Below are positions 34,515-42,443 of a DNA stretch of 64,000 nt, piece by piece. Numbering within the stretch: the first letter of the stretch is position 1; each line of letters begins with the position of its first letter. Position numbers and translations under genes: made by a program. The notes under the pieces are model-generated. The model made no database searches. It had not been told where the DNA came from and saw nothing but the letters and a program-made list of their open reading frames with translations. Origin of the DNA: Streptomyces sp. NBC_00250 (GTDB lineage Bacteria > Actinomycetota > Actinomycetes > Streptomycetales > Streptomycetaceae); contig NZ_CP108088.1 in NCBI RefSeq assembly GCF_036192275.1, forward strand, positions 3,783,501-3,847,500, written 5' to 3'.

Positions 34515-34706
34515 CTACGCGGCTCTGCCGCGAACGACCCGCACGATCCGCTCGACCTGCCCGGCCCTCGCCCCGTGCTCCTCGTCCGTCCGGTCGGGGC
34601 GCCCGCCCGGCGGGGTCGACACGGCGCGGGCGGCCGCGCAGGATGCCAGCAGCTCACTCATCGAGACGTGGTCCCGGACGGGTTCCGCGCGCTTCGGCGT
34701 CGCCAT
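34515..34706 (-). CDS. Small protein under a predicted iron box
   Basis: 63 residues, Arg- and Ala-rich, no signal or membrane segment. It contains one cysteine (LLASCAAARAVSTPPGGRP) and ends RVVRGRAA. The ATG at 34706 has a good GGGAGG about six bases upstream. Its short leader holds a DmdR/DtxR-type iron box at 34718-34736, so expression is probably raised when iron is scarce. It stands alone between tsaE and the convergent exported protein gene. It is not an MbtH protein. Function unknown. Confidence 0.72.
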   Translation of the reverse strand: MATPKRAEPVRDHVSMSELLASCAAARAVSTPPGGRPDRTDEEHGARAGQVERIVRVVRGRAA

Positions 34707-34717
34707 GCATGCCTCCC

Positions 34718-34736
34718 GTAGGTTAGGTTCACCTAA
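34718..34736 (-). promoter_or_regulatory. Iron box (DmdR/DtxR-type operator) before the 63-residue gene
   Basis: The plus strand reads GTAGGTTAGGTTCACCTAA, 17 of 19 matching the Streptomyces iron-box consensus TTAGGTTAGGCTCACCTAA. It contains a perfect TTAGGT/ACCTAA pair. It lies 12 bases upstream of the start codon. Confidence 0.8.
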
Positions 34737-34877: not shown

Positions 34878-35378
34878 TCAGAGCGCGCCCAGGTCCTCGT
34901 CCGCCCAGCGCGAGCCGATCCCGCGCAGCACGACCGAGCGCCGGTCGTCGTCCGTGTCGCCGGTCACCCGGTGGATCAGCAGGTGCAACCGGTCGTCGGT
35001 CAGCTCCTCGACCTTGCCGTCACCCCACTCGACGACCACCACCGACTCGGGCAGTGACACGTCCAGGTCGAGGTCCTCCATCTCGTCGAGACCGCCGCCC
35101 AGGCGGTACGCGTCGACGTGCACCAGGGCCGGGCCGCCGACCAGGGACGGGTGGACGCGGGCGATGACGAAGGTCGGGGAGGTGACGGCGCCGCGCACGC
35201 CGAGGCCCTCGCCGAGGCCCCGGGTGAGGGTGGTCTTCCCGGCGCCGAGCTCACCGGTGAGCATGACGAGGTCGCCGGGACGGAGGATCTTCGCGAGGCG
35301 ACGGCCGAGCTCCTGCATCTGCTGGGGGGAGTCGACGGAGAGGGTCGCGCCGGAGACGGGCGGGTGCGCTGCTTCCAT
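34878..35378 (-). CDS. tsaE: tRNA threonylcarbamoyladenosine biosynthesis ATPase TsaE
   Basis: 166 residues. P-loop ATPase that supports t6A formation by TsaB/TsaD. The Walker A is GELGAGKTTLTRG, followed by VTSPTFVIARVH, VHVDAYRLGG and VVVVEWGDGKVEEL, all family-typical. The ATG at 35378 is preferred over an upstream TTG. It follows the hydrolase gene with an 11-base gap, so alr-hydrolase-tsaE are probably one operon. The rest of the t6A genes lie 1.1 kb further on. Confidence 0.96.
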   Translation of the reverse strand: MEAAHPPVSGATLSVDSPQQMQELGRRLAKILRPGDLVMLTGELGAGKTTLTRGLGEGLGVRGAVTSPTFVIARVHPSLVGGPALVHVDAYRLGGGLDEMEDLDLDVSLPESVVVVEWGDGKVEELTDDRLHLLIHRVTGDTDDDRRSVVLRGIGSRWADEDLGAL

Positions 35379-40343: not shown

Positions 40344-40373
40344 TTGACGCCCCCTCATCGATCAACTTAGGTT
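40344..40373 (+). promoter_or_regulatory. Promoter of the iron-controlled exported pair
   Basis: -35 TTGACG (40344-40349) and -10 TAGGTT (40368-40373), spacer 18 bases, 41 bases upstream of the ATG at 40414. The -10 is embedded in the iron box, so a bound repressor would block initiation. Confidence 0.7.
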
Positions 40374-40385
40374 TGCCTTACCTAA
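40367..40385 (+). promoter_or_regulatory. Iron box (DmdR/DtxR-type operator)
   Basis: TTAGGTTTGCCTTACCTAA, 16 of 19 matching TTAGGTTAGGCTCACCTAA, with both TTAGGT/ACCTAA ends intact. It overlaps the -10 of the promoter at 40344-40373. Confidence 0.82.
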
Positions 40386-40413
40386 GTAACCGCTCGGGAA
40401 GGCCCTCTTCGCC

Positions 40414-40971
40414 ATGCGCACCGTCACCCGCTCCGCCCTCACCCTCGCCTCCGCCGCCGCCCTCACCCTCGGCCTCGCCTCCACGGCCTCCGCCGCCACC
40501 GCGAACCGCACCGTCACCGACGGCACCCGCACCTACAACCTCTCCCTCACCGCCCCGAACACCGCCTCCGCCGCCGGCACCAACGTCACCGTGACCGGCT
40601 CCGGCTACAACCCCGACCAGGGGGTCTACGTGGGCCTCTGTGCGATACCCGCGGGGGTGAACACCGCCGACCCCAGCACCTGGAACAGCAAGCCCACCCC
40701 CTGCCTCGGCGGCCAGGACGAGACCGGCACGACCGGCGCCTCCCACTGGGTGAACAGCGACTGGTACTGGATGTCCCCGTCGAACTCCTCCCCGTTCACG
40801 GAGTCCGGCGGCCTCGGCTCCTTCTCCGTCCAGATCCACGTCAAGGCGAAGCTCTCCGACACCGTCACCTGCGGCCAGTCGGGTGTGACCTGCGCGATCG
40901 TCACCCGCGCGGACCACTTCGACAGCTCCGACCGGAAGTACGACGTGTACGTGCCGGTGACCTTCCAGTGA
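40414..40971 (+). CDS. Secreted Ig-like (neocarzinostatin-like) protein under an iron box
   Basis: 185 residues. A clear Sec signal peptide (LTLASAAALTLGLAST) is cleaved near residue 28 after ASA. The mature part looks like a single Ig-like beta-sandwich: VTVTGSGYNPDQGVYVGLCA and two likely disulfides, one joining GLCA with PTPC and one inside TCGQSGVTC. That cysteine layout recalls neocarzinostatin apoproteins; binding of a small ligand such as a chelate or haem is conceivable but unproven. The stop overlaps the next start (GTGA), so the two are co-translated. Repressed by iron if the operator works. Confidence 0.82.
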   Translation: MRTVTRSALTLASAAALTLGLASTASAATANRTVTDGTRTYNLSLTAPNTASAAGTNVTVTGSGYNPDQGVYVGLCAIPAGVNTADPSTWNSKPTPCLGGQDETGTTGASHWVNSDWYWMSPSNSSPFTESGGLGSFSVQIHVKAKLSDTVTCGQSGVTCAIVTRADHFDSSDRKYDVYVPVTFQ

Positions 40972-42443
40972 GAACCGCCCTCCTGACGACGGCCGCCGTG
41001 CTCGCCCTCACGGGCACGGCGGCCGTGCGGGCCACCACCCCGCCCCCCGCTCCGTTCCACGAGAACCTGCGCACGATCACCCCGGCCACCGGCAGCGCCC
41101 TGGACGCCGAGGTCGACCCGGTCACGGACCGGCTGTACGTCAGCAGCAGCGACGGCACGGCCCACCGCCTCACGGTGTACGACACGGCCACCGGCGCCCC
41201 GGTCGGAGACCCGGTCGAACTCCCGGCCCCGGCCACGGTGATGGCCCTCGGCGCCCCCGGCACCCTCTACCTCGGCCTGTCCACCCGCATCGCCGTCTAC
41301 GACACCGCGAGCCGCACCGTCGCCGACCACCGGCTGCCCGTCGAGGGCAGCGTGAGCCTCCTCGCCGCCGACCCGGGGCAGGGACGGCTGTACGTCGGCA
41401 ACCAGGCCGCCAGATCCGTCACCGTCTACGACACCGGGACCGGTACGGCCGTCGGCGCGCCCGTCGTCCTCCCCTTCCACCCGGCCGGACTCGCCGTGGA
41501 CCCCACCGGCCACACGGGGTACGCGACCTACGTCGGCGGCGCCGTCGAGAACGGCTCCGTCGTCTACCGGAACATCCTCAACGCCGTCGACGGCACCACC
41601 GGCCGCCTCACCGGCACCGTCAGCCTGGGCACGACCGCCCTCGGCAGCATGGGAGTCACCGTCGACCCCGCCGACCGCACGGGATACGTGGCCAACCTCG
41701 CCGCCGGTACGGTCTCGGTCGTCGACCTGGCCGAACTGAAGGTCACCGGCAGCCTCGCCGTCGACGGCAACCCGAAGGCCCTCGCGTACGACCCGGGGAC
41801 CACGACCCTGTACGCGGCCCGGACCGGCGCCTCGTCCGTAGCGGTCGTCGACCCGGGATCGGGCACGGTGACGGAGACCGTCGCGACGGGCGAACGCCCG
41901 GCGGCACTGGCCCTGGACCCGACGGACCACACGCTCTTCACGGTGGCGGGCGGCGCGGTGACCCAGACGGTACGGAAGACCCCGACGCCGCCGGAGCCGA
42001 CACCGACCCAGGAGCCGACGAGCCCGACCACGGGACCGACGGACCCGACACCCACCGCGACCACGACCACGCCGGTGCCCCCGACCCAGGAGCCGACGGA
42101 CCCGGCTCCGAGCCCGACGGACACGTCACCGACACCCACACCCACCTCGACGTCCGTCGCACCGGCGACGACCGCCCCGACCCCGACGGACCCGGCTTCG
42201 CCGGACTCGACGTCGCCGGCCCCCACCTCGGGAGGCACCACCGGCGACGGCGACAGCCCGGGAGGCACCGGCACCGGCCCGATCACCACCGACGGCACCA
42301 GCCCCACCGGCGGCCTCGCCGCCACCGGCAGCCGCACCCTCCCCCTCGCCCTCACCGCGGCGAGCCTCGCCGCCCTGGGCGGCACGGCCCTGGTCCTGAC
42401 CCGCCGCCGCGCGGCACAGGCGGAAGCGGCCACCACCCCCTAG
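40968..42443 (+). CDS. Surface beta-propeller protein with LAATG sorting signal, iron-box operon
   Basis: 491 residues from GTG at 40968. Signal peptide (1-22). Residues 35-330 are repeats of the YVTN beta-propeller type (GRLYVGNQAARSVTVYDT, RTGYVANLAAGTVSVVD, TTLYAARTGASSVAVVDPG). Residues 335-440 are a Thr/Pro/Ser-rich wall-spanning linker. The C-terminus is a sorting signal: LAATG, a hydrophobic helix, then RRRAA. LAXTG is the motif used by class E sortases in Streptomyces, so the protein is probably anchored to the cell wall. Translationally coupled to the exported protein upstream. No sortase or permease gene is adjacent. Confidence 0.87.
   Translation: MRTALLTTAAVLALTGTAAVRATTPPPAPFHENLRTITPATGSALDAEVDPVTDRLYVSSSDGTAHRLTVYDTATGAPVGDPVELPAPATVMALGAPGTLYLGLSTRIAVYDTASRTVADHRLPVEGSVSLLAADPGQGRLYVGNQAARSVTVYDTGTGTAVGAPVVLPFHPAGLAVDPTGHTGYATYVGGAVENGSVVYRNILNAVDGTTGRLTGTVSLGTTALGSMGVTVDPADRTGYVANLAAGTVSVVDLAELKVTGSLAVDGNPKALAYDPGTTTLYAARTGASSVAVVDPGSGTVTETVATGERPAALALDPTDHTLFTVAGGAVTQTVRKTPTPPEPTPTQEPTSPTTGPTDPTPTATTTTPVPPTQEPTDPAPSPTDTSPTPTPTSTSVAPATTAPTPTDPASPDSTSPAPTSGGTTGDGDSPGGTGTGPITTDGTSPTGGLAATGSRTLPLALTAASLAALGGTALVLTRRRAAQAEAATTP

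Follow-up and report, generated by a model that had tools for sequence, protein, structure and literature searches.

What do two exported proteins accomplish when they are encoded by a coupled gene pair behind a predicted iron-controlled promoter? The pair lies between an NAD(P)HX-repair gene and acpS in the window, the whole 64,000-nt stretch of Streptomyces sp. NBC_00250 that was analysed (NZ_CP108088.1, positions 3,783,501-3,847,500, forward strand), and all coordinates below are positions in it. The features needed for the argument are as follows.

40344..40349, + strand: TTGACG, -35 element of the promoter predicted here, read from the sequence
40367..40385, + strand: iron box TTAGGTTTGCCTTACCTAA, found by consensus search and covering the -10 element (TAGGTT, 40368-40373)
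40414..40971, + strand: ORF1, exported 185-aa protein with predicted neocarzinostatin fold
40537..40968, + strand: neocarzinostatin-fold domain of ORF1, residues 42-185
40627..40629, + strand: Tyr72, candidate haem ligand, near-invariant in the family (alignment of relatives)
40915..40917, + strand: His168 of the TR-x-DH motif, candidate helper or ligand, near-invariant (alignment of relatives)
40968..42443, + strand: ORF2, 491-aa predicted wall-anchored beta-propeller, whose GTG start overlaps the ORF1 stop (GTGA)
41055..41978, + strand: residues 30-337, a seven-bladed propeller in the predicted model, with E. coli YncE as its best fold match
42000..42317, + strand: Thr/Pro-rich disordered stalk, residues 345-450 (sequence; pLDDT mostly under 55)
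42315..42329, + strand: LAATG sortase sorting signal (sequence)
42348..42431, + strand: C-terminal membrane helix and RRR tail, residues 461-488 (helix in the model, pLDDT about 48-63)

Iron box in front of the pair

The initial annotation had read here a TTGACG-N18-TAGGTT promoter, a 16/19 iron box enclosing its -10 element and two genes joined by a GTGA overlap, and all three readings withstood checking. The spacer comprises 18 bases, and TTAGGTTTGCCTTACCTAA agrees with the iron-box consensus at 16 of 19 positions on the + strand and at 17 of 19 on the other. A 19-bp iron box, as expected of a member of the DmdR/DtxR iron regulon, is present at the promoter, and shuffles of the window gave zero expected chance matches of this grade. 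Scanning of the complete genome with up to 3 mismatches allowed returned 26 strand-wise matches at 17 places versus none for the reversed pattern, and boxes of the same quality were registered at the host's own hmu/hta locus and at transporter-like genes (named by eye).

Orthologues were used to see how stably the box accompanies the pair, its absence from them having been named at the outset as grounds for giving up the proposal, which withstood this check. ORF1 found a match in 29 of the 150 genomes of the genus sample. With fragments and paralogues counted, 22 of these 29 loci have a box of no more than 3 mismatches within 400 bases upstream, and where the orthologue is full-length, 21 of 23 loci keep it; the two others are L028, where the sole box stands upstream of the first gene of the cluster, and L042, which is a 4.1-kb contig. 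All nine named loci have it as well (L073 among them duplicates the assembly of L024). TTGAC occurs in the 35 bases preceding the box at 28 of the 30 box sites listed (the misses are L035 and L041), and in the aligned sites flanking bases vary while the box and the -35 element stay conserved. Since ORF1 orthologues occupy several different chromosomal sites, a shared neighbourhood does not explain this conservation. Based on the box, one can assume that the pair would be subject to DmdR-type repression when iron is plentiful and to induction in its shortage; the host genome has one gene with a DtxR-type C-domain.

A second box of 3 mismatches, GTAGGTTAGGTTCACCTAA, is situated in the window at 34718-34736 (- strand); an ORF of 63 aa on the reverse strand (34515-34706), which adjoins the gene at 34878-35378, follows 12 bases downstream of it. 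In the counterpart region of L073, L074, L075, L077 and L079 a box of 3-4 mismatches recurs, and this ORF possibly encodes a small iron-controlled protein.

Two exported proteins and their families

The signal peptide of ORF1 was assigned by eye, with cleavage at ASA-A. The first gene had been thought to encode a secreted protein resembling neocarzinostatin apoproteins, and structure prediction agrees: the model matches the chromoprotein fold of neocarzinostatin and macromomycin, the enediyne apoproteins (PF00960). This fold is known mainly as an antibiotic carrier. ORF1 might be viewed as a carrier or shield for some small toxic molecule under iron control, with the propeller as an unrelated surface decoration. 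The fold and the fact that NF040680 is the sole NCBIfam match favour such a role. However, ORF1 falls below both curated cut-offs (15.4 bits versus 25 for PF00960; 20.8 bits versus 86 for NF040680) and its relatives outside Streptomyces adjoin haem transport genes; on this latter ground assignment to antibiotic chromoproteins was set aside, and we consider the toxic-molecule role very improbable. To our knowledge, neither the Tyr72/TR-x-DH signature nor a haem-transport context is a trait of enediyne carriers.

An assignment to HtaA was rejected too, because a Pfam search at E up to 10 matched no PF04213 (HtaA/CR) domain to ORF1; the absence of CR domains among the fold-search matches listed bears neither way. 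PADLOC returned no matches. Two columns of the family alignment are almost fixed: Tyr72 is Tyr in 145 of 146 distinct relatives (E 1e-25), and His168 is His in 143 of the 144 letters found among the 146. Tyr72 is a candidate haem ligand and His168 a candidate helper or ligand. In the phylogeny of the family, which relies on few columns and has weak deep forks, two groupings were used: the one that unites the ORF1 orthologues (98/88, 24 rows) and the one formed by the six acpS-site rows (97/99).

A search of PDB with the single ORF1 sequence gave two matches, the best with E 0.25. The domain profile A3, built for the ORF1-like domain, had a sole PDB sequence match, C. glutamicum ThiX (7qhm chain M, E 4.7e-10), which profile A1 meets at E 5.8e-4. 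We know of no link of ThiX to haem uptake. Its residues aligned to Tyr72 and Asp167-His168 are likewise Tyr and Asp-His. Since this match belongs to a respiratory supercomplex, the ORF1 family is not confined to haem loci. The relation to ThiX speaks against the haem reading: either the family serves further purposes or the aligned residues have a structural role. PMC8795186 describes ThiX as a supercomplex lipoprotein linked to thiamine, whose soluble portion is unresolved.

For the second gene, sequence and model agree with the initially proposed YVTN propeller, Thr/Pro stalk and LAATG-helix-RRR ending. ORF2 is predicted to form a YVTN seven-bladed propeller, and its 48.3 bits in the NCBIfam YncE equivalog are below the cut-off of 400. 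Residues 450-488 hold all the parts of a class E sortase substrate signal, namely LAxTG, a hydrophobic helix and a basic tail. Class E sortases recognise LAXTG, the host genome has 13 sortase-domain matches, and LAxTG is kept in 55 of 57 ORF2 homologues. Attachment to the wall is predicted for ORF2, the only one of the two with a sorting signal; ORF1 lacks one and is expected to be either free or retained non-covalently. ORF2 is best read, from its sequence, as the wall-anchored partner of ORF1; a role of the propeller as receptor, be it of ORF1 or of some haem source, is a guess.

Alternatively, the box might be a relic, with the pair serving as a general wall adhesin or as a ThiX-like envelope protein. 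The isolated position of the locus and the distant relation to ThiX agree with this, and adhesins often contain propellers and Ig domains. A relic, however, accords poorly with a box and a -35 element that stay conserved amid varying flanks at several chromosomal sites, and we give this explanation hardly any credence.

Haem genes beside the relatives

Profile A3 matches 12 of 396 genomes in the phylum sample and 71 of 393 in the class sample of Actinomycetota, where they represent 26 of 130 genera. The class-sample loci examined were those of all 64 non-Streptomyces genomes with a match except G334 and G348, which were examined separately. Gene context was followed with purpose-built profiles, each derived from four to six seeds, and with A3 for the ORF1-like domain; a curated model was used in the 64 genomes for haem oxygenase only. 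A haem-type binding protein is encoded in the same stretch as the ORF1-like gene in 59 of 64 loci, and a FecCD permease is too in 59 of 64; the two usually form an adjacent divergent unit. Haem oxygenase is in the stretch in 24 and HtaA in 27 of the 64. In 16 loci HtaA and the ORF1-like domain share one stop-free frame, and the same fusion is found in G334 (L100:8634-10142) and G348 (L106:6324-9704). Curated Pfam models applied to phylum-sample loci detected haem oxygenase in L100-L103 (4e-51 to 1.4e-39), Peripla_BP_2 in L101-L103 and L105, FecCD in L101, L102 and L104, and HtaA in L100, L105 and L106. At L133 (G495:C1:1210000-1228000), five ORF1-like domains in three frames adjoin a haem oxygenase gene.

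Genomes G299, G369 and G422 have no HtaA match anywhere despite their ORF1-like domain; in G299 and G422 it stands beside a haem-type binding protein and haem oxygenase, and in G369 haem oxygenase gave no match. The ORF1-like protein may stand in for HtaA in these three. Around the weak match in G419 no haem gene was seen by eye on its 4.7-kb contig, and the genome gave no haem oxygenase match.

Haem oxygenase is mostly single-copy (one match in 33 of 34 class-set genomes having it and one in each of 7 from the phylum set), and its distance to the ORF1-like domain is therefore a fair test. According to match coordinates, it lies no more than 5 kb from the domain in 24 of those 34 genomes, while 30 of the 64 lack it. 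In the phylum set it is present in 7 of 9 non-Streptomyces genomes, within 4 kb of the domain in 6 of the 7. When both sets are pooled, 30 of the 41 non-Streptomyces genomes that have the gene carry it inside 5 kb, where random placement is estimated to give under 1%, though relatedness of genomes lowers the effective number. Of the 11 misses, seven have haem oxygenase on another contig (G619, G565, G884, G827, G877, G687, G793), and four have it on the same one, about 1 Mb away in G348 and about 50-95 kb away in G660, G748 and G864.

The initial proposal of an iron, siderophore or haem capture device can thus be kept in its direction and narrowed to haem by the context of relatives: haem is preferred to siderophore or iron because in many actinobacterial lineages the domain adjoins haem-type binding proteins, FecCD permeases, haem oxygenase and HtaA. 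Capture of a ferric siderophore or other iron chelate would also suit the iron box; other boxes of the host adjoin the transporter-like genes, and the FecCD and Peripla_BP_2 families, which also serve siderophores and cobalamin, are not exclusive to haem. It is, however, opposed by the ligands of the neighbouring binding proteins and by the haem oxygenase and HtaA genes that adjoin them. In CgHmuT, according to PMC4926363, the axial ligands are His141 and Tyr240, and Arg242 is bonded to the Tyr. When frames from the 95 loci scanned were aligned to CgHmuT (published numbering was related to the chain index by an offset of 23, deduced from the alignment), His was kept in 74 of 75, Tyr in 75 of 75 and Arg in 75 of 75. 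The best PDB matches of these neighbours are 5gj3 and 5az3, together with several chains named hemin-binding. Judged by sequence, the binding proteins next to ORF1 relatives are of haem type, and siderophore capture appears unlikely.

Outside Streptomyces an iron box of up to 4 mismatches was registered in 33 of 72 stretches versus 1 of 72 for the reversed pattern. Within the class set a box is in the stretch in 30 of 34 genomes with haem oxygenase and in 1 of 30 without, a difference confounded by lineage and G+C content. Twenty-nine of these 30 genomes without the enzyme measure 1.3-3.1 Mb. In 26 loci (L198-L203, L205, L207-L221, L223-L226) from genomes of about 1.3-3.1 Mb, the ORF1-like gene is accompanied by a haem-type binding protein and a permease; haem oxygenase was not found in these genomes, nor a box of up to 4 mismatches in any of the stretches. 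Our guess is that many of the 1.3-3.1 Mb genomes belong to streamlined freshwater actinobacteria, among which haem auxotrophy has reportedly been encountered.

Such loci, which keep the domain and the importer without haem oxygenase, so that haem is not obviously an iron source there, lend some weight to the idea that ORF1 acts at the envelope as a haem buffer or chaperone, serving toxicity control or cofactor supply, rather than feeding uptake. Induction in iron shortage, as predicted for the pair, suits scavenging, and the association of boxes with haem oxygenase, with the confounding just mentioned, points the same way. Haem management without uptake seems to us as improbable as siderophore capture, and acquisition of haem remains the preferred reading.

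In Streptomyces the picture is more dispersed. In L057 and several other members of the genus, the ORF1 orthologue is inside an iron-box cluster. Besides a divergent binding lipoprotein (PF01497 at 3.9e-34), this cluster contains genes A to D: the product of A joins an ORF1-like domain to an LAxTG anchor, B encodes HtaA (3.6e-6), C is orthologous to ORF1, and the product of D, also with an LAxTG anchor, has a propeller region bordered on either side by ORF1-like domains. The lipoprotein is matched best in PDB by 5gj3 (1.1e-59) and 5az3 (9.1e-50), both of which we take to be haem binders, and then by chains named hemin-binding. According to the profiles built here, 9 of 20 Streptomyces 16-kb loci have a haem-type binding protein and 11 do not, and 6 of the 20 have an HtaA-like gene. 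Haem oxygenase is not near the ORF1-like domain in any of the 8 Streptomyces genomes tested.

The five profiles gave no further match in the window, and the pair's own locus contains no haem gene. This lack of haem neighbours in the pair's own lineage speaks against a haem role, which for this particular pair rests on homology and on the iron box. At a distance of 2.6 Mb the host has two hta genes, haem oxygenase, and hmuT-like and permease genes (named by similarity), with an iron box at 6455365. The pair would supply this hmu/hta importer from a second iron-box unit, unlinked to the importer's own. According to PMC12161575, the S. coelicolor homologues of hmuO, htaA and hmuTUV (SCO2267, SCO2270-2274) are assigned to the regulon predicted for DmdR1, though SCO2267 expression is uncorrelated with dmdR1.

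Proposed route of haem and known systems

Taken as a whole, the pair is very probably an accessory of haem acquisition. The complete reading, in which it is induced by iron shortage and operates as described here, we hold to be probable, with some reserve. When iron is plentiful, an iron-loaded DtxR-family repressor, DmdR, would block the promoter through the conserved box over its -10 element. In shortage both proteins are predicted to be exported, ORF1 being released and ORF2 joined to the wall by sortase via LAATG. ORF1, best read as a secreted haem protein of neocarzinostatin fold, would hold haem in its cleft, where Tyr72 is the likely ligand, assisted by His168, in a manner similar to HtaA domains; that ORF1 itself binds haem is a view we favour by a small measure. 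The wall-anchored propeller may be a docking site close to the surface for haem sources or for ORF1 loaded with haem, from where haem would pass to HtaA, HmuT, the HmuU-type permease and haem oxygenase, all four of which are encoded elsewhere in the genome under another iron box.

For the family as a whole, we give even odds that the ORF1 domain is a natural haem-binding family with the neocarzinostatin fold, widespread in Actinomycetota including small genomes without haem oxygenase, which would form the front end of HmuT-type import, replacing or aiding HtaA, and of which enediyne carriers are perhaps a side branch.

Surface haem capture in Gram-positive bacteria is known via NEAT and HtaA domains. 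The NEAT/Isd relay of Bacillota consists of Ig-like haem domains that are sortase-anchored, iron-repressed and hand haem over to an ABC importer. The pair is alike in outline, but its relay is a proposal, and Pfam gave no NEAT family rows for ORF1 or ORF2 at E up to 10. The CR domains (PF04213) of HtaA and ChtA from Corynebacterium are exported or surface haem scavengers of actinobacteria, and in many loci they are fused to ORF1-like domains or stand beside them. Haem binding has been demonstrated for CR domains, whereas ORF1, which lacks a PF04213 match, is modelled with the fold of enediyne apoproteins. The axial ligand of CR domains is Tyr, assisted by a helper His in those characterised previously and by a helper Tyr in ChtA, according to PMC12494546. 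By the tests run, the pair is not a member of the HtaA/ChtA or NEAT systems, though it would work alike. The searches made of open-licence PMC articles gave no description of the pair or of a haem domain with the neocarzinostatin fold, and we know of no natural haem capture by this fold. If the proposal is true, a further widespread haem domain fills the gap in genomes without HtaA (G299, G422), and the neocarzinostatin fold gains a physiological root.

Compared with YncE/YVTN propellers, ORF2 adds a sortase anchor signal and the Thr/Pro stalk, and some of its relatives have an ORF1-like domain before the propeller and Ig domains after it. Longer relatives (P0154, P0157-P0167) carry the public name "endoglucanase", yet they match the propeller, several of them with Ig domains, and this label is probably wrong.
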